From Ilumatobacter coccineus YM16-304 (lineage in GTDB: Bacteria > Actinomycetota > Acidimicrobiia > Acidimicrobiales > Ilumatobacteraceae), in assembly GCF_000348785.1 (NCBI RefSeq), contig NC_020520.1, positions 1,488,001 to 1,552,000 on the forward strand: a DNA stretch of 64,000 bases, read 5' to 3'. The notes under the pieces are model-generated. The model was not told where the DNA came from. It saw only the letters and a list, made by a program, of their open reading frames with translations, and ran no database searches. Position numbers and translations under genes: made by a program. Below, piece after piece: positions 14,257-56,480 of this stretch (position 1 is its first letter; each line of letters starts with the position of its first letter).

Positions 14257-14283
14257 CGGTGAGCCCTCACCGGCAGACCGAGG

Positions 14284-19905: not shown

Positions 19906-19927
19906 CGGGTCCTTCGGAGGCGGTCGT

Positions 19928-21562
19928 TCAGTCGAGCGGGCGTGGGTGGTAGCGGAACGCCGGTGCGGGAACCGGCACGCCGTAGGTGCGGAACTGGTGG
20001 GCGCGGGTCGTGACGGCGGCCCCTTCGAGCAGGTTCTTCGCGACCTGGGCGACCGTCCGGTTGGCGGGGTCGTCGAGGAACGAGCCCGACACCCAGGCGT
20101 TGAACGCGCCCATCGCCGGGCCGCACCAGATCTGGAAGTCGAGGCGGCGCTCGGTCGCACCGTCGATCGACCATCGGCTCGACAGGCCCAGGTAGCTGCG
20201 GAACGTGAGCGCCATCTTGTGGCGCGGGTTTCGTTCGGCCTCGGCGACCTGCTCGGGGTCTCGCTCGTTCCAGAACTCGCGCGTGGTCCGCCACGACTCG
20301 TCGACCGAGGCACCGAGGATCTTCTGTTCGAGTTCGTCGAGTTCGTGGCGGGGGATCTCGTCGAGCGATGCGTAGGTGGTGTACAGGTCGTGCAGCCGGC
20401 GGGCTCTCGGTGCGAACATCGTGCCGCGCTTCAGGACCTGGAGGTCGACGCCGAGTTCGAACATGTCGGCCGCGGGCGCCATGGCGACGTCGGCGATGTC
20501 GGCGGCGGCGAGCATCTGCTTGCCCTCGGTCGAGAGGCCCGATTCGACGCACGCTTCGTTGACCGTGCCGGTGAGTACGTATGCCGCGCCGAGACCGAAC
20601 GCGGCGGCCGCCGCCTGTGGGGTCCCGATGCCGCCGGCGGCACCCAGGCGGATCGGGCGGGTGTAGCCGTGCGCGGCGACGGCTTCGTCACGGACGGCCT
20701 GGATCGACGAGAACAACGGTCCGAGGGGTCGGTTGTCGGTGTGGCCGCCGCTGTCGCTCTCGACGGTGATGTCTTCGGCGACCGGCAGGCGGGCGGCGAG
20801 TTGCGCCTCGTCGCGGGTCAGCAACCCCTCGGCGACGAGCGCGTCGAGCATGGCCGGCGGCGCCGGGTGCACGAAGTGGCGGGCCACCTCCGGCCGCGAG
20901 ATCTTCGCGAACACGGCGTTGGGGCGGCGGACGACGCCGGCGGCGTCGACGTGCACGCCGTGGTAGGCGTAGCGCACGATCGCAGGCGTGAGCGACATGT
21001 AGGCGGCCGCGGAGACGCGGCGCACACCGCGAGTGATGTAGAGGTCGGCGACCGCCGCCTCGAGTGCCGGTTCCTGTGGCGAGTGGATGAGGTTGCAGCC
21101 CCACGGGAGGTCGTCGTGGCCGAGCGCGGCGACGAGCTCGTCGATCGCTGTGCTCACCACGTCACGGCTCAGCCCGGCAGCACCGAAGAATCCGAGGCCG
21201 CCGGCGCGAGCGATCTCGATCACGAGTCGGGTGGTGGCGATGCCGTTGGCCATGGCCCCGGTGACGTACGGGAACCGGGCGCCGTGTGTCTCGTTGAAAC
21301 TCCGATCGCCGAGCCACTCGGGGTACATGGCGGGGAGCGCGGCGCTCACCGGCCACGCTCCTGGCGTGTCGGCGTCGACCAGAGAGCCGCCGGTGGCGAT
21401 GCCGCGCCGACCGGTCTGCGGATCGATCACCACGAACGACGGCGAACGAAACGCTTCGATCGCGCTGGTGATCTCGGCGTCGGCGAACGCGGGGGAGTCG
21501 ACGCCGCGCCAACCTCCGATGATGGTGGCGCCGCCGAGGATCGGTGGTGTCGTGGTCGGCAT
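19928..21562 (-). CDS. pfaD: PfaD-type enoylreductase of PUFA synthase (FMN TIM barrel)
   Basis: A 544-aa PfaD-family protein, the trans-acting enoylreductase of PUFA synthases; it uses NADPH and FMN in a nitronate-monooxygenase-like TIM barrel. Family marks are PYVTGAMANGIA, the glycine-rich AAGGIGTPQAAAAAF, VLTGTVNEACVESGLS and the DIADVAMAPAADMFELGV stretch that is characteristic of PfaD. It is first in the synthase operon. The ATG at 21562 (or GTG at 21565) has no Shine-Dalgarno sequence; instead the stop of a 15-codon leader ORF overlaps the ATG as TGATG, so translation is probably coupled to the leader. A separate ER gene beside the large subunits is normal for this enzyme class. Confidence 0.93.
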   Translation of the reverse strand: MPTTTPPILGGATIIGGWRGVDSPAFADAEITSAIEAFRSPSFVVIDPQTGRRGIATGGSLVDADTPGAWPVSAALPAMYPEWLGDRSFNETHGARFPYVTGAMANGIATTRLVIEIARAGGLGFFGAAGLSRDVVSTAIDELVAALGHDDLPWGCNLIHSPQEPALEAAVADLYITRGVRRVSAAAYMSLTPAIVRYAYHGVHVDAAGVVRRPNAVFAKISRPEVARHFVHPAPPAMLDALVAEGLLTRDEAQLAARLPVAEDITVESDSGGHTDNRPLGPLFSSIQAVRDEAVAAHGYTRPIRLGAAGGIGTPQAAAAAFGLGAAYVLTGTVNEACVESGLSTEGKQMLAAADIADVAMAPAADMFELGVDLQVLKRGTMFAPRARRLHDLYTTYASLDEIPRHELDELEQKILGASVDESWRTTREFWNERDPEQVAEAERNPRHKMALTFRSYLGLSSRWSIDGATERRLDFQIWCGPAMGAFNAWVSGSFLDDPANRTVAQVAKNLLEGAAVTTRAHQFRTYGVPVPAPAFRYHPRPLD

Positions 21563-42262: not shown

Positions 42263-43489
42263 TCAGGCGTCGTCGGCCGGGGCCGCGTCTGGGGTCGCGT
42301 ACGAACCCTGCACGTTGACGGTGACGTTGATGAGGCGCTCGTTGTAGGTGGCGCCGCCCAGTTCGTCGAGACCGAGCCACGCGATGAGTGTCTCCTGGTC
42401 GTCGACGCGGAGCCGAGCGCAGCCCTTGCTCTGCGGCGTGGTCGGCACGTTGTTGGCACCGTGGATCGCCTGACCGCCGTCGAAGTACAACGGCTTGTAC
42501 ATGTTGCCGTTGAGCGGGTTGTCTTCGGGGACGGGGTAGTCGGTGCTGTTGTGCCAGCCGCCGTTGTCGAGTGCCGGGTCGAACCGGAAGGCCCGGCTGC
42601 GATCCTGGTCGCGGGTCTCGTACCCTTCCGATCCGGTCGAGGTGGAGAAGATGTTGGTGATGCCGTTGTCGCCCTCGCCGGTGAACATGACCTGACAGGT
42701 GCGGTCGATCAGGATCCATCGCTCGGAGAGGAGCGCCGTGGTGAAGGGCTGGCGGAGTTCGTCGGTCTCCATCAGCAGTTGTTCCTCCTCGCTGCCGGCC
42801 TCCATGTCGGCGCGGGTGACGTCGAGGCCGAGGGCGAGGCGTGCCGCACACAGCCGCTGCTGGGTGACCGGCCCCGAGATCCCGTCGACGAGGAGTTCCC
42901 GCATGCCGGACCCGTCGAACAGCTCGTTGAGCTTCTCCTGCTGCCGTTTCACGGCGTCGGTGCGGGCGGCTTCGACGAGCGCCTGGTTCGGTGCTCGCTC
43001 CGACCCGGTGATGTCGTCGAGACCGTTGTCGACGCACACGTCGAGGACCTGGCCGGCGTAGATGACGTCGGTCTCGATCTCGTTCTCGGCCTTGATGGTG
43101 GCGATGGTGACCGTGGGGTCGTCGAAGGCGTCGGCGATGAGGCCGAGCGAATCGCCGGATTGCACTTCGACCACGCAGTCGGGGTCGTAGACGTCGAGGC
43201 CGGGCACCGTCGTGGTGGTCGTCGTGCTGGTGGTGGCGGGCGCGCTGGTCGACGTGGTCGTTGCGTCGTCGTCGGTGCTCGTGGTGTCGTCGTCGGTGGT
43301 CGTGGACGGCGTGGTGCTCGGGGCCGTCACGGCGGTGCCGGTGCCGGGACGCGTGCTGGTGTCGGGTTCGACCTGCGCGGTGGCGTCGCCGGGCACGGGG
43401 AGGGCAGCATTGTTCGTCTGCGACGACGCGCACGCGGTCGCGGTGATCGTGAGGCCCGCGAGCACCGCGGCCGTCCGCTGCAACAACAT
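42263..43489 (-). CDS. LysM + L,D-transpeptidase (YkuD) lipoprotein
   Basis: A 408-aa cell-wall enzyme. Signal with lipobox TATAC (C20), Thr/Ser/Asp-rich linker to about 98, a LysM-like peptidoglycan-binding motif (VEVQSGDSLGLIADAFDD...YAGQVLDVC), a peptidoglycan-binding-like helical part (VDGISGPVTQQRLCAARLALG), and a YkuD domain with H343 and C357 in HG-x10-SKGC. It makes 3-3 cross-links in peptidoglycan, using the Cys as nucleophile. The start is supported by TACGTT 7 nt upstream (43497-43502). It follows the GGDEF-EAL gene by 77 nt on minus. Confidence 0.88.
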   Translation of the reverse strand: MLLQRTAAVLAGLTITATACASSQTNNAALPVPGDATAQVEPDTSTRPGTGTAVTAPSTTPSTTTDDDTTSTDDDATTTSTSAPATTSTTTTTTVPGLDVYDPDCVVEVQSGDSLGLIADAFDDPTVTIATIKAENEIETDVIYAGQVLDVCVDNGLDDITGSERAPNQALVEAARTDAVKRQQEKLNELFDGSGMRELLVDGISGPVTQQRLCAARLALGLDVTRADMEAGSEEEQLLMETDELRQPFTTALLSERWILIDRTCQVMFTGEGDNGITNIFSTSTGSEGYETRDQDRSRAFRFDPALDNGGWHNSTDYPVPEDNPLNGNMYKPLYFDGGQAIHGANNVPTTPQSKGCARLRVDDQETLIAWLGLDELGGATYNERLINVTVNVQGSYATPDAAPADDA

Positions 43490-43566
43490 GGACCAGAACG
43501 TATCGACGTCGTACCTCGGCGTCGTTTCAGGTCGACCTGAATCTCGGGAATGTTTCGATCGACGGA

Positions 43567-45255
43567 TCAGCGGTCGAGGAGCGCACTGAAGTCGTCGGGC
43601 ACGAGCGGACGTGAGAAGTGGAAGCCCTGATAGCGATGAGCGTTGCGGACGAGGGCGAGCTGGGCGGCGTCTTCGACACCTTCGGCGGTGATCTGTTTGC
43701 CGAGCATCGTCGCGAACTGGATCAGCGCCTGCAGCAGTTCCTCGTTGCTCGTGGTCGCGCCCTCGCCGCTGACGAACGATCGGTCGATCTTGATCGCGTC
43801 GACCGGGAACTGCCGGAGGTAGCTCAGCGGCGAGTACCCGGTGCCGAAGTCGTCGAGTGCGATCTCGCAGCCGAGGTCGGCGAGTTCTCTGAGCGTTTCG
43901 CCCGCCGCCTTGGGCTCGTGGATCAGGGCGGTCTCGGTGACCTCGATGCACAGCCGGTCGGGTGCGAGCCCGGCTTCGGTGAGCGCGGCGCGCACGGTGT
44001 CGGCGAAGCCCGCTTCGACCAACTGCTGGGCGGCTACGTTGACGCTGACGGTGTCTGGCGCGGTCTCGGGAAACGCTTCGATCCAACGGACGAGTTGCCG
44101 GGTGGCTGCTCCCAGCGCCCACACGCCGATCGGACGGATCAGGCCGGTGACTTCGGCGATCGGCAGGAACTCGCCGGGGTTCACGAGGCCGCGTTCGGGA
44201 TGCTGCCATCGAATGAGTGCCTCGGCGCCGACGACGTCGCCGCTCTCGCAGCTCACGATCGGCTGGTACACGAGTCGCAGTTCGTCGTTGTCGATCGCGT
44301 GGTGCAGATCGGCTTCGAGTGCGATCCGGCTGGCGCAGTCGGCGTGCTCCGACCGGCAGGCGTAGGCGATGCGATCACCGCCGAGCACCTTGGCGCCGTA
44401 CATCGCCCGGTCGGCGGTGGCGATCAGGTCCGACGCGACGACGTCGGGGGTGTCGGCGCGAGCCACGCCGATCGTGGCCGAGGCGAAGACCTCTCGATCG
44501 AGGACTCGGTACGGGGCGCGGCACGCTTCGAGAACGCGCTCGATCACGCTGCCGTCGGCGTCGATCTCGCCGTCGCCCAGCAGCACGACGAACTCGTCGC
44601 CGCTCAGCCGGGCGATCGAGTCGGCGGGACGGAGCACGGAGCGCAGACGCTCGGCGAACTGCACGAGCAGGGCGTCGCCGGCTGCGTGCCCCAGACCGTC
44701 GTTGATCAGCTTGAACCGGTCGATGTCGATGAACAGCACCGTGACGGTCGAGGGTTCGGCTGCCAGTTCGATCAGCGCGTCGGCGATCCGCTGCTCGATC
44801 AGGATGCGGTTGGGGAGCGACGTGAGTTGGTCGTGCATCGCCTGGTGTTCGAGCGAGCGCTGGAGTCGTCGTTGCTCGGTGATGTCGCGGAACGTGACCG
44901 CGAGCCCGTCGCCGAGGCTCACCGACGTCTGGAGGAACCAGTGGTCGTCACCCTGCTTCTCGACGTGGTACTCGATGGTCGCCGGCTCGCCCGACTCGAC
45001 CACGTCGACGTAGCGCTCGAACACCTCCTCGGTGCACGGCATCTCCTCGCGTACCCGTCGACCGATCACGTCGATCGCGGTGCGCTCGATGATCTGCGCT
45101 GCTGCAGGATTGAGAACGCTCCATCGGAAGTCGACGATCTGGTCGCGATCGTCGCGGACGGTTTCGAAGGCCATGATCCCGTCGTGTGAACTGTTGAGTA
45201 CGCCGGTCAACAGCCCTCCCTCATAGTGGTGCTGCGTCACGGTTCGTGAACTCAT
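43567..45255 (-). CDS. PAS-GGDEF-EAL cyclic-di-GMP protein
   Basis: A 562-aa cytosolic signalling protein. PAS-like sensor about 15-128 (LNSSHDGIMAF...FRDITEQRRLQ), GGDEF domain about 135-300 with the active-site loop written SGDEF (218-222), and EAL domain about 310-560 with E345-A-L-I-R349 and DDFGTGYSPL, VDAIKIDRSFV. The EAL residues look intact, so phosphodiesterase activity is likely; SGDEF can still be active. ATG 45255 has AGAAGG close upstream; another ATG at 45273 is possible. It follows the capA-like gene by 115 nt and precedes a cell-wall enzyme, suggesting c-di-GMP input to surface polymer making. Confidence 0.9.
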   Translation of the reverse strand: MSSRTVTQHHYEGGLLTGVLNSSHDGIMAFETVRDDRDQIVDFRWSVLNPAAAQIIERTAIDVIGRRVREEMPCTEEVFERYVDVVESGEPATIEYHVEKQGDDHWFLQTSVSLGDGLAVTFRDITEQRRLQRSLEHQAMHDQLTSLPNRILIEQRIADALIELAAEPSTVTVLFIDIDRFKLINDGLGHAAGDALLVQFAERLRSVLRPADSIARLSGDEFVVLLGDGEIDADGSVIERVLEACRAPYRVLDREVFASATIGVARADTPDVVASDLIATADRAMYGAKVLGGDRIAYACRSEHADCASRIALEADLHHAIDNDELRLVYQPIVSCESGDVVGAEALIRWQHPERGLVNPGEFLPIAEVTGLIRPIGVWALGAATRQLVRWIEAFPETAPDTVSVNVAAQQLVEAGFADTVRAALTEAGLAPDRLCIEVTETALIHEPKAAGETLRELADLGCEIALDDFGTGYSPLSYLRQFPVDAIKIDRSFVSGEGATTSNEELLQALIQFATMLGKQITAEGVEDAAQLALVRNAHRYQGFHFSRPLVPDDFSALLDR

Positions 45256-45370
45256 GGTCCTTCTTCGACTCATGTGGCAGACAACTTGACCGCTCTCGCG
45301 AGAAAACCTGTCGCGTTCGGTCGAACGATGGGCACCGGGACCGGCGGAACCGGGGGGGGAGAGAGAGGGG

Positions 45371-47830
45371 TCAGCAGCCCGACGTGACGATGTCGAACGC
45401 TCCGGGCGACTCGGACCGGGCGAGATCGCCTTCGACCCACACCGCTGACTCCGACGGCGTGGGGCCGCGCCATTCGACGACCTGGACGTTGTCGATGGTG
45501 AGTGCACCACGAAGTGCGGCGGGCACGTCGACGAGCAGTGTCGCCGAGTTCGGTGTGGTGCCGTCGGGGCCGGGTGCGAAGAGTTCGTCGGGCACCTGGA
45601 TGGTGACGTGGTGCCATTCGTCGTCGGCGGGCGCATCGATCGGGAGCGAGACCTCGTTGAGCCGAGCCGATTCGGGGTCAGCCGTCGGGTTGGTGTCGTC
45701 GAAGTGGAACGAGACGAGGCGGATGCTGGGAATCTCGCCGCGATTCCGTTTGACGTCGAGGATGATCTCGTACAGGGCCTCGGTGTCGAGCGGCTTCGCA
45801 TCGGCGTCGAAGAGGCGGTGGCTGCGCACGTCGAAACGAGCGGCGATCTGCGTCGAGGTCTGCGCGTTCGGGTCGGTGAAGAGCGAGAACGCGTCGTCGT
45901 AGTCCTCGCCACTCGCTCCGCTGACGAGATCCCAGCGTTCGCGCACGGTCGAGACCTTCCAGTGCATCGGACGACGCCGCAGACCGTCGGCCGACGCATT
46001 GTCGAAGTGCCCCCAGTCGAAGAGATCGGTACCGATCTGGGTCCCGGCCGGGAGCAGGTCGCTGCGGACGAGCGTGCACGGGGGGAGCGCGGTCGGGCCG
46101 ATTCCGCTGTCGATGATGCGCACGTTCGAGCTCACCCGCGACGTGGTGATGAGCCCGGAGTTGTGTTCGACGATGAATGCTGCTTCCTGCGTGCGGTTGT
46201 TGCCCAGATCGACGTTGCCGTTGCCGTCGGCGTCGGGGTCGGCGGGTTCGAACACACTGCCGACGCGGAGGCCGTCGACACGCTTGCTGGTCGCGTCGAT
46301 CGCCGAGCGGTGGTCGATCATGCGGATGATCTGCTGTGCGACGCGACCGCCGACGGGAACCGGGCGATACCGGTCGAGCATCACGGGCAGGATGCGCGCC
46401 TCGAGCACGCTGGTGCCATCGCTGATGATGCGGAGCATGGCGCTCGGGAAGGTGGCGAGGAAGTCCTGGTCGAAGACGAGGTTGCCGAGGCTGTACGCGA
46501 TGAGCTTGCCGTCGTACCACTCGACGCCCTGCAGGACGTGTGGATGATGGGCGATGACGATGTCGGCGCCGGCGTCGATCGCTCGGTGGGCGATGGTGCG
46601 CACGAACGAGCTGGGGACGTCGGCGAACTGGTAGCCACCGTGCACCTGGACGGTGACGGTGTCGGCGCCGTCGGCGCGGAGTCGAGCGATCTCCGACTCC
46701 ATCTCCGAGCGTGAGTAGGGGGCTGCGCCACCGTGGTCGCGTCGGGCGACCCAGTCCTGCAGCTCCGGATAGACGCCGATGACGGCGCTCCAGAAGTCGC
46801 CGAGGACGGCCTCGCCGAGCTCGTCCTCCCACTCGTCGTAGATCGTCCACACGTCGCCGATGCGCCGTTCGTCGACCTTGACGACGAGGGGGTCGCCGTC
46901 GTCGTTCTCGAGCGCGGTCTCGGTGTAGCCGAAACTGCGCAGCTCGTACTGCCAGGCTTCCGATTCGGGCAGATCGATCGGGATCTCGTCGTCGCCGTCG
47001 GGGAGCTGGTCGTTGACGAAGCTGCCGTTGACGGTGGTGAACGAGATGGTTCCGACGGTGTGCTCGCCGACGCGACTCAGTGTGCCGCGGACGGCTTCTT
47101 CGCGGGTGTGGCCTGCTCCGACATGGGCCATCCCGGCGTCGTCGAGAATCGAGAGCGTGCTCTCGGTGCCGACGTCGCCCCAGTCGTAGGCGTGGTTGTT
47201 GCCGAGCGTGACGAGGTCGACCCCCATCTCGTCGAGCGCCTCGGTGATGTACGGCGTCGACTGGAGGAGGAATCGTTTCGCGACGAGGGCTTGCTCGTCG
47301 GGCAGTTCGCCGACGACGGTCTCGAGGTTGACGACGGTCCAGTCGGCCGCGCTCGACAGCGGGCCGAGGTCGTCGACGACGGCTCGCGCGGAGTCGGCGT
47401 CGGTCACGAGCGGGCCGCTCGCTTCGGGGTCGAGGTAGCGACGACCGAGCATGACGTCGCCGCCGAAGTGCATCGACACTCGCTCGGTTCCGTCGTCGGC
47501 GAGCCGGTCCCAGAGGTGCACCGTCGTCACGCCGTCGGAGGGGTCGAGCACCACCGGTTCGACCAGGGTGTCTCGAGTCGACACGCGCGCGACGACCGGC
47601 GCGGTGATGCTGATCTCGGCTCGACCGTTCGCGTCGGTGGTGATCACGTCGTCGGCGATCGCGATCTGCGCATCGGCGACCGGGGCGCCTTGTTCGTTGC
47701 GGACCACCATGGGGATCACGGCGGGTTCCTCGACGTCGCGAGGTTCGGCCTGCGGGCCGTAAGCGCAGGCGGCGGTGAGCACGGCGAGGCTCGTGACGCA
47801 GCCGAGCAGGCGCGTGATCCGGTGATGCAT
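45371..47830 (-). CDS. capA: CapA/PgsA-type poly-gamma-glutamate protein, giant lipoprotein form
   Basis: An 819-aa exported protein, about twice the usual 380-410 aa. Lipobox LTAAC (C22), an Ig-like/carboxypeptidase-regulatory-like domain about 35-108, then the PGA_cap metallophosphatase-like domain about 113-480 (FGGDVMLGR, VNLETVVG, TLGNNHAYDWG, VQVHGGYQF, IAHHPHVLQGVEWYDGKLIAYSLGNLVFDQ). From about 540 a C-terminal part resembles a carbohydrate-binding jelly roll. CapA/PgsA is needed for polymer export or retention with PgsB and PgsC. It lies 50 nt after the pgsC-like gene. There is no clear ribosome binding site at the ATG. Confidence 0.88.
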   Translation of the reverse strand: MHHRITRLLGCVTSLAVLTAACAYGPQAEPRDVEEPAVIPMVVRNEQGAPVADAQIAIADDVITTDANGRAEISITAPVVARVSTRDTLVEPVVLDPSDGVTTVHLWDRLADDGTERVSMHFGGDVMLGRRYLDPEASGPLVTDADSARAVVDDLGPLSSAADWTVVNLETVVGELPDEQALVAKRFLLQSTPYITEALDEMGVDLVTLGNNHAYDWGDVGTESTLSILDDAGMAHVGAGHTREEAVRGTLSRVGEHTVGTISFTTVNGSFVNDQLPDGDDEIPIDLPESEAWQYELRSFGYTETALENDDGDPLVVKVDERRIGDVWTIYDEWEDELGEAVLGDFWSAVIGVYPELQDWVARRDHGGAAPYSRSEMESEIARLRADGADTVTVQVHGGYQFADVPSSFVRTIAHRAIDAGADIVIAHHPHVLQGVEWYDGKLIAYSLGNLVFDQDFLATFPSAMLRIISDGTSVLEARILPVMLDRYRPVPVGGRVAQQIIRMIDHRSAIDATSKRVDGLRVGSVFEPADPDADGNGNVDLGNNRTQEAAFIVEHNSGLITTSRVSSNVRIIDSGIGPTALPPCTLVRSDLLPAGTQIGTDLFDWGHFDNASADGLRRRPMHWKVSTVRERWDLVSGASGEDYDDAFSLFTDPNAQTSTQIAARFDVRSHRLFDADAKPLDTEALYEIILDVKRNRGEIPSIRLVSFHFDDTNPTADPESARLNEVSLPIDAPADDEWHHVTIQVPDELFAPGPDGTTPNSATLLVDVPAALRGALTIDNVQVVEWRGPTPSESAVWVEGDLARSESPGAFDIVTSGC

Positions 47831-47880
47831 ACGTGTGGTCAATCGGCAGGGCTTGCCGGGTTCTTGAATCGCGGTGGCGC

Positions 47881-49443
47881 TCAGAAGTCGATCAGTGGCT
47901 GCTCCAAGGGGGTGGTCGGGTCGGTTGCTCCAGAGACATCCGATGCAGCGGGTTGTGCCTCCCTGGTTGCTGCATCGGATGTCTCTGAGATCTGGTGGCG
48001 CTCGGCAGGCCGACGCGGGACGCGTCGCATGCCGCGCTGCTCTTCGAGCGCGGTCTCGAGCACGGAGGTGGTGACGTCGTCGATGTACCCGGTGGTCGAC
48101 GAGGCGGTGTCGCCCACGGGACGCTTCGAGAATCGGGCGATCTGTGCCGTGACCCACTCCTCGGCGTCGGCGGCGAAGGCCGGGTGGCGGCGAGCCCAGG
48201 CGTCCCAGGGCGTGTCCCACGCTCCGGCCTCGGTACCGGTGTCGGCGGTGGCATGGGCGAGGGCCAGTCCGGGCGCAGCCGGTGCCTGCGACGGGATCGA
48301 GCGAACGAAGGCGATGACGGTCTTGGGTGCGGCGAGCAGCCGCGAGCCGGTGAGGAGCACGATGCCGCTGAACTGCTTGGCGAACATGATGCAGAACGTC
48401 ACCGTGGCCACGAGCTTCCATCCCGGATGCAGCGGCTCGCCGATCACGCCCGACTGCACCCACCAGGTGGCGGTGACCGAGAACGATCCGGCGAGGACGA
48501 GGCCGATCATCACCCGCAAGGGTGAGGTCCGCTGCGCGTCGTTGGCGATCAGTCCGGGGAGGAGCAGCGGGGTGAGCGCGAGCGAACCGACGCCGAGATG
48601 CTCCTGCCAGTTGGCGTCGAGGAATCGGTCGCCGACCCACAGTCCCGACCAGGCGATCGCCGAGGACACGAGGAGCATCGACGAGAACTTGCGGCGTCCG
48701 AACAGGATCATGTGGTTCATCAGCACCTTGGCGACGATGAGCCAGGTGGCGAGGGCGATGGTGAGCGCCACGACGACCTGCCACGGATCGGCCATGAACA
48801 TGCCGGTGAACGCGGCGCCGACGAACCCGCCGCTGCGCAGGTTGTAGTTGTGCGCAACGGCCCACGAGGCGCCGACCGACAGGGCGACGGCGAAGGGCAA
48901 CCACTCGAGGCTGATCGCGATGTTGCCGAAGCCGCTCACCGGCGACAGATCGTTGACGCCGGGGAGGTCGAGGATGAGGGCCGCGGCGATCGGCGTGGCG
49001 ACGATGCAACCGGCCATGAGGACCGACTTGGTCGTCTTCCACACGCCTTGGCGCGCCATGTCGTGGGCGATCAGCGCCGGGACGATGTACCCGACGCCGA
49101 TGAAGAGCGGAATGTCCCGCTCCCACAGCCATTGGCCCGACGGGGTGATGCGCAGCATGCCGAACTGGATGGTGGTGGAGGTGACGGCGAGGATCGTGAA
49201 CTTCGTCCGGCCGTACAGCAGGAAGTAGCGCCGGAGGAACAGGTTGACGAACGCGTAGGTGATGAACGCGTTGATGAAGGTCGCGAGGATGACCAGTGGG
49301 TGGATGATGAAGACGGCGATGTAGCCGGGCACGACGATCGAGCCGGTCGTGAGGTGTCGCTTCTCGTACATGACCATCGACACGGCGACGCCCAGCACGA
49401 ACGCGAAGCGGATCCACTCGGCCGAGAGCAGATAGTCATGCAT
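47881..49443 (-). CDS. pgsC: PgsC/CapC-type membrane protein with duplicated CapC domain
   Basis: A 520-aa membrane protein; normal PgsC is about 150 aa. Two CapC units are visible: about 10-160 (VVPGYIAVF...RYFLLYGRTKFTILAV...GYIVPALIAHDMARQG) and about 190-345 (FVGAAFTGMF...HMILFGRRKFSSMLLV...LLLPGLIANDAQR). A hydrophilic tail of about 130 residues follows. PgsC pairs with the ligase PgsB in the poly-gamma-glutamate synthase. The gene follows pgsB by 16 nt. The tail-coding DNA contains a 19-bp perfect inverted repeat. Tandem CapC fusion makes two subunits' worth in one chain. Confidence 0.88.
   Translation of the reverse strand: MHDYLLSAEWIRFAFVLGVAVSMVMYEKRHLTTGSIVVPGYIAVFIIHPLVILATFINAFITYAFVNLFLRRYFLLYGRTKFTILAVTSTTIQFGMLRITPSGQWLWERDIPLFIGVGYIVPALIAHDMARQGVWKTTKSVLMAGCIVATPIAAALILDLPGVNDLSPVSGFGNIAISLEWLPFAVALSVGASWAVAHNYNLRSGGFVGAAFTGMFMADPWQVVVALTIALATWLIVAKVLMNHMILFGRRKFSSMLLVSSAIAWSGLWVGDRFLDANWQEHLGVGSLALTPLLLPGLIANDAQRTSPLRVMIGLVLAGSFSVTATWWVQSGVIGEPLHPGWKLVATVTFCIMFAKQFSGIVLLTGSRLLAAPKTVIAFVRSIPSQAPAAPGLALAHATADTGTEAGAWDTPWDAWARRHPAFAADAEEWVTAQIARFSKRPVGDTASSTTGYIDDVTTSVLETALEEQRGMRRVPRRPAERHQISETSDAATREAQPAASDVSGATDPTTPLEQPLIDF
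47931..47987. repeat. 19-bp perfect inverted repeat within the end of pgsC
   Basis: CAGAGACATCCGATGCAGC (47931-47949) and its exact complement (47969-47987) flank a 19-nt loop. Both arms are coding (SETSDAA and AASDVSG in the PgsC tail). It sits about 100-157 nt upstream of the capA start, so the mRNA could fold into a strong stem between the two genes' coding regions. Confidence 0.9.
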
Positions 49444-49459
49444 GAGCAGGGTCCGGCGG

Positions 49460-50767
49460 TCAGGCCGGCTGCTCCGATCCGTTGGCGGCCGGGAGACCGG
49501 CGAGGACGGCGTCGAACTCGTCGTCGAAGTGGGGGAGCCACGGCTCGGCTTCTTCCTCGAAGTACTCGAGCATCTCCTCGGCTTGGTGCGTGTGGATGTT
49601 GACGAACCCCACGACCAGCACGTGGGCGGTCGGTTGCTGGCTGATCATCTGATCGATGATCTCGGTCTGCGTGAACGAGTGCTCGTCGCCAAGGTTGAGG
49701 ATGTTCGCGGGGTCGTAGCCGTTCTGCTTCAGGCGGTCGGTGACGAGTCCCTCGTAGGCGCCGAACGTGACGAGGCGGTCGAAGTCGAGGTCGTTCACGC
49801 CGACGTCGGCGAACTGCACCGCCCGGCGTTCGCGATCGTCGCGGTTGTTCAAGATGCCGACGACGGTGGTGTCGGCGGTCATGAACGGGTCGAGCTTCTG
49901 CATGGCGGCGATCATCGACTCGCGGTCGTTGACCGCGAACAGGTTCGCCCACGTGACCTTCTTGGTGCCGCCGGGCTCACGAGCGATCGGACCCGTGCCG
50001 ATCCGGAGTTCTTTCATGCGCAGCACCCCGGGATCCGGCTCGGCCTTGGCCATGCCGCGCACGGCCACGTCGCGAGGGATGCCGATGATGTCGGCGATGG
50101 CGAGCGCGATCGTGACGTTCTCCTTGAAGGAGATGAAGTCGAACGCGCTGTTCTCCTCGTCGGTCACCTCGTCGGGGTCGGCGACGACGAGCTTGGTGCC
50201 TTTGCTCTCGGCGACCTCGCGCATGATCTCGACGATCTCGGGGTTCTGCTCGGAGGTGACGAGGATGCCGTCGCGTGGGCAGGTGCTGAGCAGTGAGCGG
50301 GCGATCTCGGGAAGCGTCTCGCCCATGACGTCCTGGTGGTCTTCGCGGACGTTGGTGAGCACGCCGATGTTCGACCGGACGATCATCCGTTCCGACACTT
50401 CCTGGTACTCGGGCTTGAGTGCCATGCACTCGATCACCAGGGCGTCGACGTCCTCGGTCACGTAGGCGCGTGCAATCTCGATCTGCTCGAGGATGGTCGG
50501 AGGACCTTTTCGGTTGATGGGTTCGTCGATTCCGTCACGGTTGATCACCGCAGCGAAGGTCCCCGTCGACTTGGCGACGGTGACGAGACCGTGTTCACGG
50601 AGCATCCCCGCGATGATGCGGGCGACGGTCGACTTGCCACGGATCCCGTTGACGTGGATACGCCAGTCGAGTCCGTCGACGAGTCGACGATGCGCGAGTG
50701 TTTCGAGTCTCCAACGGAGAATCAGCGTGACACTGACGAGAACGCCAGCGATCACTATGAGAGGCAC
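49460..50767 (-). CDS. pgsB: PgsB/CapB-type poly-gamma-glutamate synthase ligase
   Basis: A 435-aa Mur-ligase-like amide ligase with one N-terminal membrane anchor (about 3-18). P-loop GIRGKST (41-47), STGTFAAVI, VIECMALKPEYQ, and LTNVREDHQDVMG, the Mur-ligase magnesium and acid-activating regions. It activates gamma-carboxyls with ATP to polymerise glutamate. The start is GTG with AAGGG 3 nt upstream. First gene of a minus-strand pgsB-pgsC-capA operon and divergent from the lamin-tail protein gene, 146 bp away. Confidence 0.92.
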   Translation of the reverse strand: MPLIVIAGVLVSVTLILRWRLETLAHRRLVDGLDWRIHVNGIRGKSTVARIIAGMLREHGLVTVAKSTGTFAAVINRDGIDEPINRKGPPTILEQIEIARAYVTEDVDALVIECMALKPEYQEVSERMIVRSNIGVLTNVREDHQDVMGETLPEIARSLLSTCPRDGILVTSEQNPEIVEIMREVAESKGTKLVVADPDEVTDEENSAFDFISFKENVTIALAIADIIGIPRDVAVRGMAKAEPDPGVLRMKELRIGTGPIAREPGGTKKVTWANLFAVNDRESMIAAMQKLDPFMTADTTVVGILNNRDDRERRAVQFADVGVNDLDFDRLVTFGAYEGLVTDRLKQNGYDPANILNLGDEHSFTQTEIIDQMISQQPTAHVLVVGFVNIHTHQAEEMLEYFEEEAEPWLPHFDDEFDAVLAGLPAANGSEQPA

Positions 50768-50776
50768 ATCCCTTCT

Positions 50777-50788
50777 TCGACATGTCGA
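50777..50788. promoter_or_regulatory. 12-bp palindrome TCGACATGTCGA upstream of pgsB
   Basis: The palindrome lies 9 nt upstream of the pgsB GTG and beside its Shine-Dalgarno sequence, in the divergent pgsB/lamin-tail intergenic region. It may be an operator or a chance short palindrome; no factor is suggested by the sequence. Confidence 0.25.
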
Positions 50789-50913
50789 GAGGCAATCTTG
50801 AGGCGCGCCGACGAAATCGGCGGTCCGGACGCTTCGTTTCTCAATGCTTGGTCAAGGTTGAGAAATTCGGTTTAGCCCCTGCTCAGCGCGACCGAAGACA
50901 GAAACGATCTCTC

Positions 50914-53900
50914 ATGCATCGTGCTGCCCGACTTCCTCTCTCCGTGCTGACCTCGACCGCGGTCGTCATGGCCCTCGCGACCACCGCACTCGGCGCGCCG
51001 AGCGACGATCCGTCACCGGACGACGAGGTGTCGACCGAGAAGCCGGCGGAGCCGGCACCCGAGCCCGACCCAGACACCGAGTCGCCGACCGCCGATCGTG
51101 GCGCCACCGATGTCGAGACCGCTCCACCGCTGCTGTTCCCGCGGCCGACCGAGATCGTGACCGCCGGGCAGATCAGCGATGTGCCGTTCACGCCGCCGGC
51201 TGCTCCGCCGGCCGATGACGACGACATGGCTCAGGCTCGCCGCGTGTCGACGACCCCGGCGCCCGACTTCCTGCCGACGCTGCCGGTCGGCTCGCTGTTC
51301 GACGTCGTCATCACCGAGGTCCACTACAACCCGTCGGCGGTCTACGACTCGCGCGGCGAGTTCTTCGAGATCTACAACGACGGTCTGCTCCCGCTCGACC
51401 TGTCGGGGTGGACCTTCGGCGACGAGATCTACGACAAGCACACGATCAGCTCGCTGACGATCGCCCCGGGCGACTACGCCGTGTTGGCTCGCTTCGGCGA
51501 GTTCGACCGCAACGGCGGCGTGGCTGCCGACTACGTGTACGGCGACTCGGTGCTGCTCTTCAACGTCGGCGACCAGATCGTGCTGCGTGACTCGCTCGGC
51601 TTCGTCGTCGACGTGGTCGACTACAGCCTCGACGAGTTCCCCGACCCCGTCGGCAGCTCGATCTCGCTGGTCGACATCTCGGCCGACAACGCCGACGGTG
51701 ACAACTGGTGCGTATCGACCACGCCGCTCGTCAACGGCGACCACGCGTCGCCCGGTGCTGCCAACCAGTGCGGCCAGTCGCGCGCCTCGCTCGAGATCAC
51801 CGAGATCCTCAACAACCCGGGTCGCACCTCCGACTTCACCGGCGAGTGGTTCGAGATCCACAACACCGGAAACACCACCGTCGACCTGAACGGGTTCGGC
51901 ATCAAGGACGACGATCGCGACTGGTTCACCGTCGACCACTCGGTCGTGGTCGAGCCGGGCGAGCGCGCCATCGCCGGCGTGCTCGACGACCCGGCCCGCA
52001 ACGGCGGCGTCGACGTCGACATCGCCTACGGCGACGCGATGCGCCTGCACAACTCGTTCGACGAACTCGTCATCGTCGACACGCTCGGCATCGAGGTCGA
52101 CGCCGTCCGCTGGGACGACGGCCGCACCTTCCCCGACCCGAACGGTGCATCGATGCACCTCCAGAGCGGTGCGAGCGACAACTCGAACGGCGAGAACTGG
52201 TGCACCTCGGCGCGGCGCTGGGCGACCGGCGACTTCGGCTCGCCTGGTGTGGCGGGCAACTGCACGCCGACCGAGTACCCCGACATCGTCATCACCGAGG
52301 TGATGTTCGATCCGGAGCGCACCTCGCCCGAACGTGCCGGTGAATGGTTCGAGCTCATGAACAACGGGTCCGAGACGGCGGTGCTCGACGGCTTCGTGCT
52401 GCGCACCTACTCGACCCAGCACACCATCGGTGATCTGACGATCGAGCCTGGTGCTCGTGTCGTCGTCGCCTCCGACGGCGATGTCGCCGAGAACGGCGGG
52501 GTTTCGGCCGATTACGTCGTCGGAGGCGATCTTCCGCTCTACAACACGACCTCGACGCTCGAAGTGGTGGCTCCCGACGGGACGCTGCTCGACCGGGTTC
52601 GCTGGACGGCGAGCCTCGGCTTCCCGTTCGGCAAGGGCCACTCGATGGAGGTGCGCGGCGCTGATGTCGACAACCTCCTCGGCCCCAACTGGTGCGCTGC
52701 CACCGACCGGTACGGCGACGGCGACTTCGGTACGCCCGGCACCGCCGGCTCGTGTGACGAGCCGGCGCCGGCTCCGTCGCTGGTCATCAGCGAGATCATG
52801 CGCAACCCGGCAGCGGTGAGCGACATCGTCGGCGAATGGCTCGAGATCCACAACCCGACCGCCGACGCCGTCGACCTCCTCAACTGGAGCATCGGTGACG
52901 AGAGCTCGGAGTATCACGTCATCACCGAGTCGATCGAGATCGAGCCCGGTGGCTACGCCGTGATCGCCCGCAACGCCGACCCGGCCGTGAACGGTGGCGT
53001 CGCCGCCGACTACGCCACCGGTTCGGCCATGGTGCTGCTCAACTCCGGCGACACCGTGGTGATCAACGACCGGTATGGGCAGTTCGTCGACTCGTTCAGC
53101 TGGACCAACAGCGACCTGTTCCCCCGCCCGAACGGCGGAAGCATCGCTCGCACCGACGCCTCGCTGTCGGCGCTCGCACCGGGTGACGACGCCAGCGGCT
53201 GGTGTGCGACCAGCACCCAGTACGGCGACGGCGATCGCGGTACGCCGGGCGCCGCCAACGACTGTGTGGTCGCTCCGAACCACGCGATCGTGATCAACGA
53301 GATCCACCGTGACCCGAAGGCGACGCCTGATGCCCAGGGTGAGTGGATCGAACTGCACAACTCCGGCGATGTCGACATCGACATCAGCGGCTGGACGTTG
53401 CGTGACGACGACGTCGACACGTTCGTGTTCGACACCGACAACCCGGTCGTCGTGCCGGCGGGCGGTTACCTCGTCGCCGGTCGCAACACCGAAGAACTCA
53501 ACGGTGGCATCGAGATCGACGTGCAGTACGGCGTCGAGTTCATCCACTTCAACACGGCCGACGAGGTCGTGCTGCTCGACGACGACCTCGCGGTGATCGA
53601 TCGGGTCGCCTGGACGGCGACCAACGGTTTCCCGAAGGTGTCGGGTGCGACGATGTCGCTGCGCTCCGCCGACCTCAACAACGCCGTGGGCGCCAACTGG
53701 TGCGCTGCCGTGACCGACCAGGGCAACGGCGACCTCGGCACGCCCGGCTCGCAGAACCTGTGTGAACTGCCCGATCCCGGACCGAGCCCGGTGGACCTGT
53801 CGTACTCGATGTTCGCGATCGCCGACGACAGCTGCAGGGGAGAGGTGACGCTCAACGGCTCCGAGATCGTGGTCGGCACCAGGATTCGCTCGAACGACGA

Positions 53901-54492
53901 CTTCTCCGTCAACGGTGGCCTCATGACCTTCCTCGGAGCGGTGTCGTACGCCGACTCCGCCCAGATCGGCTGGGGCGCCCAGATGCTCGGCGGCGTCGAG
54001 CAGGAAGCCGGCGTCCAGGCCGACCCGTTCGGCTGGTCGCTCGCCGACTTCGCTCCGGGTGGGGCGATGGCGCTCGCAGCCGGCGACGACTACACGTCAC
54101 ACTCCGGCACTTGGCGGGTGACCGGCAACGCGGCCGACATCCCGGCCGGGCTGCACTACGTCGATGGCGACGTGCACTTCGCCACGGGCACGACGCACCT
54201 CAACGGCGTGACGATCGTGGCGACCGGCAGCATCAAGATCAACTCGAACTCGGTCAGCCTGTCGCCGTACTCGCCCGACATGCCGACACTGTTCGCCGGT
54301 GAGGACCGGTGCAACAAGTCCGGCATCCAGTTCAGTGCGAGCCTCATCAACGTGTCGGGTGCGCTGTACTCGCCCGAAGCTCGTATCAAGATGAATTCCT
54401 CGATGCTCACGGCGACCGACGCGTCGCTCGTCGGCGCTGCGGTGCAGATCGACGGCTCCAACATCCTCGTCAACCTGCTCCCGTCGCTCTGA
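50914..54492 (+). CDS. Secreted protein with five lamin-tail domains
   Basis: A 1192-aa exported protein: Sec signal peptide about 1-27, acidic Pro-rich region to about 120, then five lamin-tail (LTD) repeats beginning near residues 126, 289, 454, 617 and 788. Each starts I-x-E-(I/V)-x-x-(N/D)-P, continues GE(W/F)(F/L)E(I/L) and contains NGG or N-G-G-V, ending in GDxGTPGxxNxC with paired Cys. The C-terminal 235 residues (from 959) are Gly/Asn-rich with short strands, probably a beta-solenoid, with two Cys. Bacterial LTD proteins are often associated with exported nucleases or adhesins; no catalytic domain is seen. Probably a surface or matrix protein. Confidence 0.85.
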   Translation: MHRAARLPLSVLTSTAVVMALATTALGAPSDDPSPDDEVSTEKPAEPAPEPDPDTESPTADRGATDVETAPPLLFPRPTEIVTAGQISDVPFTPPAAPPADDDDMAQARRVSTTPAPDFLPTLPVGSLFDVVITEVHYNPSAVYDSRGEFFEIYNDGLLPLDLSGWTFGDEIYDKHTISSLTIAPGDYAVLARFGEFDRNGGVAADYVYGDSVLLFNVGDQIVLRDSLGFVVDVVDYSLDEFPDPVGSSISLVDISADNADGDNWCVSTTPLVNGDHASPGAANQCGQSRASLEITEILNNPGRTSDFTGEWFEIHNTGNTTVDLNGFGIKDDDRDWFTVDHSVVVEPGERAIAGVLDDPARNGGVDVDIAYGDAMRLHNSFDELVIVDTLGIEVDAVRWDDGRTFPDPNGASMHLQSGASDNSNGENWCTSARRWATGDFGSPGVAGNCTPTEYPDIVITEVMFDPERTSPERAGEWFELMNNGSETAVLDGFVLRTYSTQHTIGDLTIEPGARVVVASDGDVAENGGVSADYVVGGDLPLYNTTSTLEVVAPDGTLLDRVRWTASLGFPFGKGHSMEVRGADVDNLLGPNWCAATDRYGDGDFGTPGTAGSCDEPAPAPSLVISEIMRNPAAVSDIVGEWLEIHNPTADAVDLLNWSIGDESSEYHVITESIEIEPGGYAVIARNADPAVNGGVAADYATGSAMVLLNSGDTVVINDRYGQFVDSFSWTNSDLFPRPNGGSIARTDASLSALAPGDDASGWCATSTQYGDGDRGTPGAANDCVVAPNHAIVINEIHRDPKATPDAQGEWIELHNSGDVDIDISGWTLRDDDVDTFVFDTDNPVVVPAGGYLVAGRNTEELNGGIEIDVQYGVEFIHFNTADEVVLLDDDLAVIDRVAWTATNGFPKVSGATMSLRSADLNNAVGANWCAAVTDQGNGDLGTPGSQNLCELPDPGPSPVDLSYSMFAIADDSCRGEVTLNGSEIVVGTRIRSNDDFSVNGGLMTFLGAVSYADSAQIGWGAQMLGGVEQEAGVQADPFGWSLADFAPGGAMALAAGDDYTSHSGTWRVTGNAADIPAGLHYVDGDVHFATGTTHLNGVTIVATGSIKINSNSVSLSPYSPDMPTLFAGEDRCNKSGIQFSASLINVSGALYSPEARIKMNSSMLTATDASLVGAAVQIDGSNILVNLLPSL

Positions 54493-54493
54493 T

Positions 54494-54898
54494 CTACTCC
54501 GGTCCTCGAAGGACCTCGGTCGCACAGCTGATGGTCGGCGCGCTCGCCAGTCGCCGATCGGCCGTGACGAGTGTGCAGTCCAGGGCCTCGGCGAGCGCGA
54601 CGTAGCACGCGTCGTAGGCGGTGACGTTCGCTCGGAGTTCGAACGCTCTCGGCATGAACACCGCCGTGGGGAAACGAGTGATCGGCAGTGCCAGCAGATC
54701 GTCGACGGCACTGCGAAATCGTTCGTCCGTGAGATCGCCCTTCAGCCAGCGTCGGCGTAGTACCGACACCGTCTCGACATCGACGAGATCGGGGGCCGAT
54801 GCGGCGCCGGCGATCTGGAGCCGGCGACGAGCGAGGGTGCCGGCCGACTCGTCGTCACCGACGACGTTGGCCAGCACCGAAGCGTCCACGACGATCAC
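54494..54898 (-). CDS. vapC: PIN-domain toxin of a VapBC module
   Basis: A 134-aa PIN RNase. Acidic metal ligands: D5 (VVDASVLAN), E42 (VDVETVSVLRR), D about 95 (TAYDACYVALAE) and D about 113 (LVTADRRLA). It cleaves RNA, in known VapCs mostly tRNA or rRNA loops, and is held inactive by the cognate antitoxin. Its ATG overlaps the antitoxin stop by 4 nt, the usual VapBC arrangement. The stop is 1 nt from the end of the convergent lamin-tail gene. Confidence 0.92.
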   Translation of the reverse strand: MIVVDASVLANVVGDDESAGTLARRRLQIAGAASAPDLVDVETVSVLRRRWLKGDLTDERFRSAVDDLLALPITRFPTAVFMPRAFELRANVTAYDACYVALAEALDCTLVTADRRLASAPTISCATEVLRGPE

Positions 54899-55125
54899 CG
54901 CGTCGCGCGTTCCTCAGCGAGGTCGTCGACGGCGTCGTCGAAGCCGACTCGACCGCCTGAGCGCTGTTCGATTCGTGCGAGCACGTCGGGGAGCGTCGGC
55001 GTGTGCGCGATTCGTGAGAGTTCGCCGGTGAGGTATTGCTGGAGCGATTGCCCTGCTGCTTCGGCGCGTTGTTGCAGGCGTGCATGAACATCGGCCGGAA
55101 GATCTCGAATCAACACATTCGGCAT
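54895..55125 (-). CDS. vapB: Antitoxin of VapBC module (FitA/RHH type)
   Basis: A 76-aa antitoxin: MPNVLIRDLPADVHARLQQRAEAAG is a ribbon-helix-helix DNA-binding unit of the FitA/VapB type, followed by a C-terminal toxin-binding tail (VLARIEQRSGGRVGFDDAVDDLAEE). It represses its own promoter with the toxin. CATACT lies 6 nt before the ATG, so the transcript is probably leaderless, and palindromic TGCATGCA overlaps this region. Confidence 0.9.
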   Translation of the reverse strand: MPNVLIRDLPADVHARLQQRAEAAGQSLQQYLTGELSRIAHTPTLPDVLARIEQRSGGRVGFDDAVDDLAEERATR

Positions 55126-55145
55126 GCTTGCAGTATGCATGCAGT
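55122..55145 (-). promoter_or_regulatory. vapBC promoter with palindromic operator candidate
   Basis: On the minus strand CATACT (55137-55132) sits 6 nt before the vapB ATG. Palindromes GCATGC (55122-55127) and TGCATGCA (55136-55143) bracket it, and TGCAGT appears twice. This fits a ribbon-helix-helix operator over the -10. Confidence 0.45.
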
Positions 55146-55190
55146 CCGTCTGCGAGGCAAGCGCGGGTCGAAGCAGCTGACGAATTGCTC

Positions 55191-55219
55191 TTGCGTCTTG
55201 GATCGAACAAGTGTACGAT
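55191..55219 (+). promoter_or_regulatory. Promoter with near-consensus SOS box
   Basis: TTGCGT (55191-55196), a 17-nt spacer and TACGAT (55214-55219), which lies 6 nt before the ATG at 55226. CGAACAAGTGTACG (55204-55217) matches the LexA operator CGAAC-N4-GTTCG with one mismatch and overlaps the -10. The layout mirrors the promoter of the other DUF222 gene at 5563. Confidence 0.65.
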
Positions 55220-55225
55220 AAAGCT

Positions 55226-56480
55226 ATGTCAGCCAGGGATGACGCCAAGGAAGGGTTCGGTGGGTTGGCTGACGTGCGGGCTGCGGTCAACGAGATCGCT
55301 GGGTTTCGCAATGCGCTCGATGGGCGGATCGTCGACGTGGCGGTTTGGTTGCTCACGCACGACGAGTGGCGTGGTACCGGGTTGCACAAGCCCGAGCAGT
55401 TCCTGGCGTTCCGGTTCGGTATCGGCGTGGCTGCTGGTCGCCGCTATGTCGACGTGGCGCGGCGTGCCGACGAACTCCCGGCATCGGTCGACGCGCTCAG
55501 GTCGGGGGAGTTGTCGCTCGATCAGTTGATGCCGATCGTGCGGCGTGTGCCCGCGTGGGCAGACGACCAGGTGCTGTCGTTGTCGAAGCGGCTCACGGTC
55601 GGCCAGATCAACGCGGTCATCAACAAGTACAACTTTGAACGGTCGGGACTGCCCGACGACTCGATCATCTCGGAAGACCTGATCATCTCCGATGCCGAGC
55701 GCAACGAGACGCAACCGACCGAGACGCCATCGCCACGGCCGGTCGAGGTGCCCGATCGGTGCTGGATGGGGGTCGGCGACGATGGCCGGTGGCGGCTGCG
55801 CCTCGAGACCACCCCCGAGGTCGGTCTCACCATCCAGAACGCGGTCGACGAGGCTCGGGACCGCATCTTCCGTGACACCGCGAACTTCGTGTCCGAGGCT
55901 GAACACCGACGGGCGCGCGACCGATCATCTCGGCGCGCCACTGCCGGCGGCGATCGTCGAGCACATCACCTGCGACGGCATGCTCACGCCGGTGTTCCAC
56001 CGCAACGGGGTGCCGATCTCGGTCGGGCGTACTCAGCACATCGTTCCGGCCCGTACCCGCAAGGCGGTGCTGCTGCGTGACGGTGGTTGTGCGGTTCCCG
56101 GCTGCGGGGCGACTCGCCATCTCGACGTGCATCACATCGTGCACTGGTCAGACGGTGGCCCGTCCGACACCTGGAACCTGGTGGCGTTGTGCACGCACCA
56201 CCACCGATCACATCATCGAGGGCGACTCGAGATCAGCGGAAACGCCGACCTCGGCACCATCGTGTTCCGCAATCAGCACGGGGTGAACATGGCGAACGAC
56301 GGGCCGAGACCCGAGCCCCCGGAGGGCCCGCCACCTGCGCCGACGAGCGAGTACCACCCTCCGCTCTGCGAGCGGCTCGACATGAACTACGTGAGCTTCG
56401 TACATCCCGCACGCCTCGCCCCCTTCACCCGCCAGGCGAAGGCGTGGGCTGCCCGGCACGCCGCCACCCCGACCTCTTGA
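55226..56480 (+). pseudogene. DUF222 / HNH endonuclease gene, broken by internal deletion and frameshift
   Basis: The 5' part (55226 to about 55895) encodes a normal DUF222 domain (ARDDAKEGFGGLADVR... to EARDRIFRDTANFVSEA). The 3' part, in the +1 frame from about 55895, encodes DGRATDHLGAPLPAAIVEHITCDG, SVGRTQHIVPARTRK and an HNH motif (C-x-VPGC, DVHHIVHW, N, C-x-HHH). The segment that normally separates these two blocks in the family, about 40-50 residues, is missing, so a deletion rather than a simple base slip is likely. The first frame runs on only to 56080 without the nuclease. The promoter with its SOS-like box is intact. The ATG at 55226 is set by the -10 box 6 nt upstream. Confidence 0.8.

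Follow-up and report, generated by a model that had tools for sequence, protein, structure and literature searches.

A probable poly-gamma-glutamate synthase operon of lineage-typical variant form, with a two-unit CapC and a large CapA, in Ilumatobacter coccineus

Genes of the cap operon

We analysed a window of 64,000 nucleotides from the genome of Ilumatobacter coccineus YM16-304 (NC_020520.1, positions 1,488,001 to 1,552,000), a genome of 4,830,181 bases in a single contig, denoted G000 in comparisons. At positions 45371-50767 the window carries a predicted operon for synthesis of poly-gamma-glutamate (PGA), in which three genes follow each other on the minus strand in the order capB-capC-capA with intergenic gaps of 16 and 50 bases:

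49460-50767, minus strand: capB (pgsB), 435 amino acids (aa), GTG start; PGA ligase of the Mur-ligase type with a hydrophobic N-terminus (TIGR04012 and Mur_ligase_M)
47881-49443, minus strand: capC (pgsC), 520 aa; two CapC units, an extra hydrophobic segment and a long tail (TIGR04011; PF14102 twice)
45371-47830, minus strand: capA (pgsA), 819-aa predicted lipoprotein (PF09587; five-row alignment with an invariant C22)

The CapB protein scored 344.1 bits against the NCBI equivalog model of PgsB, TIGR04012 (cut-off 222.7), and CapC scored 131.4 bits, in two stretches, against the PgsC equivalog TIGR04011 (cut-off 96.45). For CapA the match to PF09587 (PGA_cap) covered residues 121-455 with 197.8 bits (cut-off 27). 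Coordinates and frames are correct and all three family cut-offs are passed. The first-pass annotation, a PGA operon in which CapC is double and CapA a large lipoprotein, was supported.

The excerpts of PMC5542703 describe a CapsuleFinder model of PGA capsules in which CapB and CapC are mandatory, CapA and CapE are accessory and CapD may lie anywhere in the genome; the model further expects the releasing hydrolase PgsS to be absent. Both mandatory genes and the accessory CapA are found here. With 16 and 50 bases between them, the cap genes leave no room for the small peptide CapE, for which no search was made. CapD is a relative of gamma-glutamyltransferases; the CapD-type family PF01019 has one match in G000 and is matched in 16 of the 17 genomes searched, yet in 8 of 14 control genomes as well.

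The operon resembles the known PgsBCA/CapBCA systems in the gene order B-C-A, in having a ligase, a membrane partner and a CapA-family protein, and in the equivalog matches of B and C. It differs from them in the doubled CapC, which in this family has a long tail, and in the size of CapA, 819 aa including a new C-terminal domain, as compared with open frames of 394-589 aa in five operons with single CapC. We regard the locus as encoding a probable PGA synthase whose variant form is genuine and typical of the lineage. Its two points of interest are the fusion of unequal CapC units and a large CapA of the epimerase type, one domain of which is undescribed.

The two-unit CapC

Canonical PgsC is one unit of ~150 aa, whereas the CapC of I. 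coccineus has 520 aa with the following parts:

49033-49395, minus strand: CapC unit 1, residues 17-137 (PF14102, 91.9 bits, cut-off 27)
48514-48867, minus strand: CapC unit 2, residues 193-310 (PF14102, 64.1 bits, cut-off 27)
47884-48351, minus strand: hydrophilic tail, residues 365-520, delimited by hydropathy and charge pattern; with six helices per unit it would be cytosolic

The two matches to PF14102 lie in one open frame, in agreement with the earlier description of a double CapC; a match to a single unit, the outcome named in advance as refuting that description, did not occur. As a control, PF14102 was searched in 14 genomes, one of which matched, B. subtilis.

The spread of this form was followed in three samples, all from Actinomycetota, with 198 genomes from the class, 200 from the family and 396 from the phylum; many of them are incomplete metagenome-assembled genomes, so absences are soft. 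The 200 family genomes used in the surveys of CapC and of the CapA C-terminal domain were taken as one set, as their handles agree. In the class sample CapC was present in seven genomes, with both units in a single frame in six of them and, in G028, a lone unit that is weak and divergent. Twelve genomes of the family sample matched CapC; among the 11 above the cut-off all have two units, in one frame in ten cases and spread over two contigs in G620. A scan of genome contigs produced one locus on the same contig as that of G580, which was counted once. The phylum sample yielded 23 genomes with a match, 20 of them above the cut-off: three with two-unit CapC (G000, G007 and G325, the last from another class), one with two separate single units (G364), 15 with one unit and one with a fragment of 27 columns. 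Thus, CapC of this lineage usually has two units, a form that is rare elsewhere in the phylum sample. Chance or assembly error as its source is excluded, since 16 sampled genomes of the class have two units, 15 of them in one frame.

No published description of a two-unit CapC was present among the literature matches listed, in a search that mostly did not extend to subscription papers. Searches with CapC found no relative among PDB sequences (the best E-value, 0.15, was to antibody chains) and none in IMG/VR.

In a tree of 51 units every second unit falls on one side of a branch with support 100/99, and the halves of the G325 protein each group with their own unit type. One old duplication behind both units fits these data best; long branches leave the joins unsure. 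Omitted from the tree were G322, G356, G496, G521 and G657, with weak or partial PF14102 matches, as well as the incomplete second unit d2_G620.

The two halves have also retained different parts of the ancestral sequence. We found 32 columns conserved in at least 90% of 17 single-unit CapCs and considered a column kept if it was present in 70% of rows or more; the rows left out of the tree, and s_G028, were omitted from this table as well. Nine columns were kept in unit 1 only, five in unit 2 only, six in both and 12 in neither. Residues of single-unit CapC found exclusively in unit 1 include, with others, P39, G40, A43, G118 and Q132; those exclusive to unit 2 include G206, I246, R251 and G297. 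In the G000 protein the two units are 21% identical. Because the halves kept different ancestral motifs, the fused CapC is probably an asymmetric pair, although such a pattern is no proof of function.

The membrane topology of the units was assessed in two ways. A hydropathy scan of eight two-unit CapCs at a single threshold gave 4-6 segments per unit and none between the units; past unit 2 an extra hydrophobic segment was seen in six of the eight rows, while L041 ends at a contig edge and L046 lacks it. A single-unit CapC examined in this way showed five segments at the strict threshold, a sixth appearing at a lower one. In hydropathy averaged over alignments of single (17), first (17) and second (16) units (s_G028 being among the excluded rows), six separate hydrophobic zones could be read by eye in each group, and no hydrophobic zone separates the two units; an automatic counter gave 7 or 8 zones, splitting the shoulders. 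In first units the loops that follow zones 1, 3 and 5 have a lysine plus arginine (K+R) sum of ~10, versus 2.5 for the remaining loops; in second units the sums are ~6 and 2. Given six helices, the K+R-rich loops of both units share one side, and by the positive-inside rule we infer that both units are oriented alike with the N-terminus out, in which case the extra segment would place the tail inside. Five helices per unit would invert the second unit and make single-unit CapC a homodimer of dual topology. The SOSUI topology of PgsC quoted in the excerpts of PMC6029982 has five helices, the number also seen in a single CapC at the strict threshold. Still, the sixth segment seen at the lower threshold and in the averages, along with the common side of the positive loops if there are six helices, makes this arrangement improbable.

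In nine further loci of the family the capC open frames span 408-605 aa (one reaches a contig end and some start too early), as compared with 372-387 aa and short tails in the complete CapC rows from the relatives designated f24 and f27; this difference makes the long tail a trait of the family.

The large CapA

The first-pass annotation had described CapA as a giant lipoprotein with an immunoglobulin (Ig)-like N-terminal domain and a jelly-roll-like C-terminus. We delineated the following parts:

47765-47830, minus strand: signal peptide in which residues 18-22, LTAAC, resemble a lipobox; T at position -3, so no strict lipobox
47501-47713, minus strand: N-terminal carboxypeptidase-regulatory/Ig-like segment, residues ~40-110 (PF13620/PF02369, sub-threshold)
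46466-47470, minus strand: PGA_cap core, residues 121-455 (PF09587), with D125, E170, N212, H213, D216, H397 and H431
45467-46033, minus strand: C-terminal domain, residues ~600-788, from alignments, between C585 and C819

The core is homologous to the peptide epimerase MslH: a profile built from five large CapAs matched the MslH chain 8gq9_A with E-value 1.3e-23. According to the excerpts of PMC10406935, Asp11, Glu44, Asn87, His88, Asp91, His259, His261 and His295 of MslH are needed or important. Seven of these eight active-site residues are matched in 19 of 19 CapA-type rows, by D125, E170, N212, H213, D216, H397 and H431, respectively, in the protein studied here; D125, the equivalent of Asp11, was placed via a GD motif outside the HMMER alignment. 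Both His/Asp dyads of MslH are thereby present, His88/Asp91 as H213/D216 and His295/Asp11 as H431/D125. Among the metal ligands, the equivalents of Glu44, Asn87 and His259 are kept and the position of His261 differs. Unlike MslH, CapA has Gly at this position, a predicted lipid anchor, two flanking segments and a long insertion that separates the two halves of the core.

According to Ogasawara 2019, cited in the excerpts of PMC7168211, PgsA epimerises L-glutamate of the PGA chain as it grows. For B. subtilis, the excerpts of PMC6029982 give a D/L ratio of 5/95 for the polymer made by PgsBC and 75/25 for that made by PgsBCA; they state that pgsBC is enough for PGA synthesis and acknowledge earlier work that disagreed. 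By analogy, PGA synthesis may proceed without CapA here as well. Given the catalytic dyads shared with MslH and the reported epimerisation of PGA by PgsA, the first job of CapA is likely to be epimerisation, with the extra domains accessory; the first-pass annotation had not mentioned this role. One could argue that a calcineurin-like fold, common to metal-dependent phosphatases (PMC10406935, excerpts), would also suit a hydrolase or a release factor; in view of the reported PgsA epimerisation and the shift in D/L ratio (PMC7168211 and PMC6029982, as excerpted) we find a hydrolytic or releasing role hardly credible.

The search of IMG/VR with CapA produced two relatives, similar in the core only. 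A 771-aa CapA-like protein with a proline-rich insert is encoded after the two-unit CapC of G325 (L046:3266-5581, minus strand). We considered whether it has the same three-part architecture, and this possibility was weakened: profile A7 misses its C-terminus, and hhalign gave an E-value of 0.029 and a probability of 1.7%.

With regard to the anchor, T at -3 in LTAAC deviates from the strict lipobox pattern; C22, following a hydrophobic stretch, is conserved in 11 of 11 large CapAs with a readable N-terminus, this one included. A twelfth row, G654, begins inside the gene and its N-terminus was not counted. The Ig-like character of the N-terminal segment is less firm than first proposed: the matches to CarboxypepD_reg (E-value 0.012) and Big_1 (E-value 0.052) are weak and stay below the Pfam cut-offs, 16.4 versus 32.3 bits and 14.1 versus 34.9 bits. 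The match to PF13620 was likewise weak in both large CapA relatives scanned, and it was absent from P0004.

An alignment of 13 rows of the C-terminal domain shows 14 invariant columns. The domain matched no known Pfam family (best E-value 0.019 over the 13 rows) and no PDB sequence below an E-value of 0.6. A single-sequence model was all-beta and poor (predicted local distance difference test, pLDDT, 35.7; predicted TM-score, pTM, 0.33), and a fold search of the PDB with this model gave no match at E-value ≤0.001. Non-significant look-alikes among the 50 listed included carbohydrate-binding modules (CBMs), viral capsid and tumour necrosis factor (TNF)-ligand jelly-rolls, and also other folds; jelly-roll CBM16, CBM22, CBM35 and CBM61 were among them, with no sequence match, and membership in these families is not claimed. 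Thus, a jelly-roll fold is plausible as far as the model can be relied on, and the earlier suggestion stands in this reduced form, with many jelly-roll look-alikes and no significant sequence or fold match behind it. A Cys near the start of the domain and another at or near the chain end are both present in nine of nine rows of the family and both missing in four of four f24/f27 rows, as would be expected for an extracellular disulfide.

It could be supposed that the system is an ordinary PGA synthase, in which the fusion merely welds a CapC homodimer and the extra CapA domains are spacers with no role. All recognisable parts are indeed parts of PgsBCA, and many protein fusions are neutral. 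On the other hand, the CapC halves, 21% identical in G000, have kept different motifs, and 14 invariant columns over 13 rows are seen in the C-terminal domain of CapA; we regard such an ordinary synthase as unlikely.

Combining the class and family samples, near-full-length large CapA (open frames of at least 766 aa) was found in 11 of the 16 genomes with two-unit CapC. The capA gene adjoins capBC in G000 and G592 and lies in the same stretch on the opposite strand in G094; in the remaining eight genomes (G007, G058, G133, G609, G632, G690, G629 and G698) it is on a contig separate from that of capBC. A partial large CapA is present in G620. The class sample, in which at most five candidates per genome were scored, has near-full-length CapA in at least five of 198 genomes among the matches listed, and all five have two-unit CapC; the Fisher P-value of 2.5e-9 for this co-occurrence is uncorrected for kinship and comes from three families only. 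In the family sample the C-terminal domain was strong in nine of 200 genomes, seven of them with two-unit CapC (Fisher P-value 5.0e-9, uncorrected), and a tenth match, in G564, was weak (E-value 1.9e-4). In the phylum sample the domain occurs in G000 and G007 only. That large CapA and two-unit CapC occur together without being linked suggests that they work as partners. As to the spread of the architecture in relatives, two-unit CapC is therefore typical of the lineage, and large CapA accompanies it in most cases, mostly unlinked.

Surroundings of the operon and a possible mode of action

A secondary structure was found within the 3′-end of capC:

47931-47987, minus strand: perfect inverted repeat of 19 bp with a 19-nt loop (highly stable when folded as RNA, z-score -7.58)

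The congener G592 has a 17-bp version in which both arms carry an A-T to C-G change. Origin from a repeated mobile element was dropped, as no second copy of the arm exists in the genome with up to two mismatches allowed. The terminator search found none, and the repeat lacks a terminator-like T run; possibly, it is an RNA element setting the levels of capC and capA.

Several neighbouring genes are recorded here as side observations. Divergent from capB, a gene at 50782-54492 (plus strand) encodes a protein of 1236 aa containing five Lamin Tail Domains, a relative of which is likewise divergent from the adjoining capB in G592. After capA, on the same strand (42263-45273, minus), there are genes for a PAS-GGDEF-EAL protein and a LysM-YkuD L,D-transpeptidase; the frames read after capA in G592 include neither, and the idea of a conserved tail to the operon was dropped. 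A PIN-domain protein and a FitA-like ribbon-helix-helix protein (54494-55389, minus) are a probable toxin-antitoxin pair, and two very long tandem open frames, of 2399 and 2009 aa, occupy 7057-20313 (minus). In seven of ten further family genomes, from other genera (L125-L128 and L130-L132), capBC without capA adjoins the rpoC/rpsL/rpsG/fusA region; for RpoC, S7, S12 and EF-G, Pfam confirmed one example of each, and the remainder were assigned by like sequence.

Three genomes of family f24 have, divergent from capB, an open frame encoding 1456-1597 residues (L044:3121-7914, plus strand; alike in L042 and L043). The frame in G007 encodes NAD-glutamate dehydrogenase (PF05088, 776 bits), and the other two were assigned by like sequence. 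This observation bears on the earlier suggestion that another polyamide is made. Divergence of CapC and CapA, and the loss of several PgsC motifs from CapC unit 2, would agree with a different product; given that the equivalog cut-offs of both PgsB and PgsC were passed and that NAD-glutamate dehydrogenase lies by capB in these relatives, the suggestion is unsupported and we consider such a product very improbable.

The operon probably encodes a variant PGA synthase in which the fused CapC passes the chain out and CapA inverts its residues outside. CapB, as known for its family, would polymerise glutamate at the inner face of the membrane. The two-unit CapC, probably with six helices in each of two parallel units, would act as a fused, asymmetric pair, keeping CapB in place and giving the chain a way out, and its probably cytosolic tail may dock CapB. 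Outside, lipid-anchored CapA with its metal site of the MslH/PgsA type would convert residues of the emerging chain to the D form, as the conserved residues and the reports on PgsA suggest. In what is the weakest step, the N-terminal stalk and the C-terminal beta domain of CapA probably hold the polymer or the wall. The earlier idea that the extra parts anchor or shape the polymer at an envelope surface fits a lipoprotein with additional beta domains and is, like this step, inferential.

A number of observations weigh against this variant synthase. Two-unit CapC occurs without large CapA in G074, G630, G580 and G596, and G654 and G571 have the C-terminal domain with no detected CapC, so the partnership is not strict. 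His261 of MslH is replaced by Gly in 19 of 19 CapA-type rows, and the CapA-like neighbour in G325 keeps two of seven metal-site residues. The single-threshold hydropathy scan yields just 4-6 segments per CapC unit, and the published five-helix topology of PgsC (PMC6029982, excerpts) would invert unit 2. The AlphaFold2 model of CapC, made from two aligned sequences, was too poor to use (pLDDT 35.2); from this model and that of the CapA C-terminus just helix order and all-beta character were read. Finally, the first units are joined with support of just 85/79, and together with the long-branched single unit of G028.

A further reading, which we put forward tentatively, is that the fused CapC is an asymmetric dimer dividing ancestral jobs and that the new CapA domain may be a co-evolved PGA-holding module beside an extracellular polymer epimerase, even where the genes are unlinked. 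The division of jobs is suggested by the PG of VPGY, G118 and Q132 in unit 1 alone and G206, R251 and G297 in unit 2 alone. If this is true, single-unit PgsC would act as a dimer whose two members differ in role. A lineage in which CapC is a fused pair and its halves have lost complementary motifs gives direct access to CapC stoichiometry and to the roles of its motifs. PGA is both an industrial and a capsular polymer; the large CapA, as an unusual probable PGA epimerase, would be useful for understanding how its D/L composition and attachment are set.

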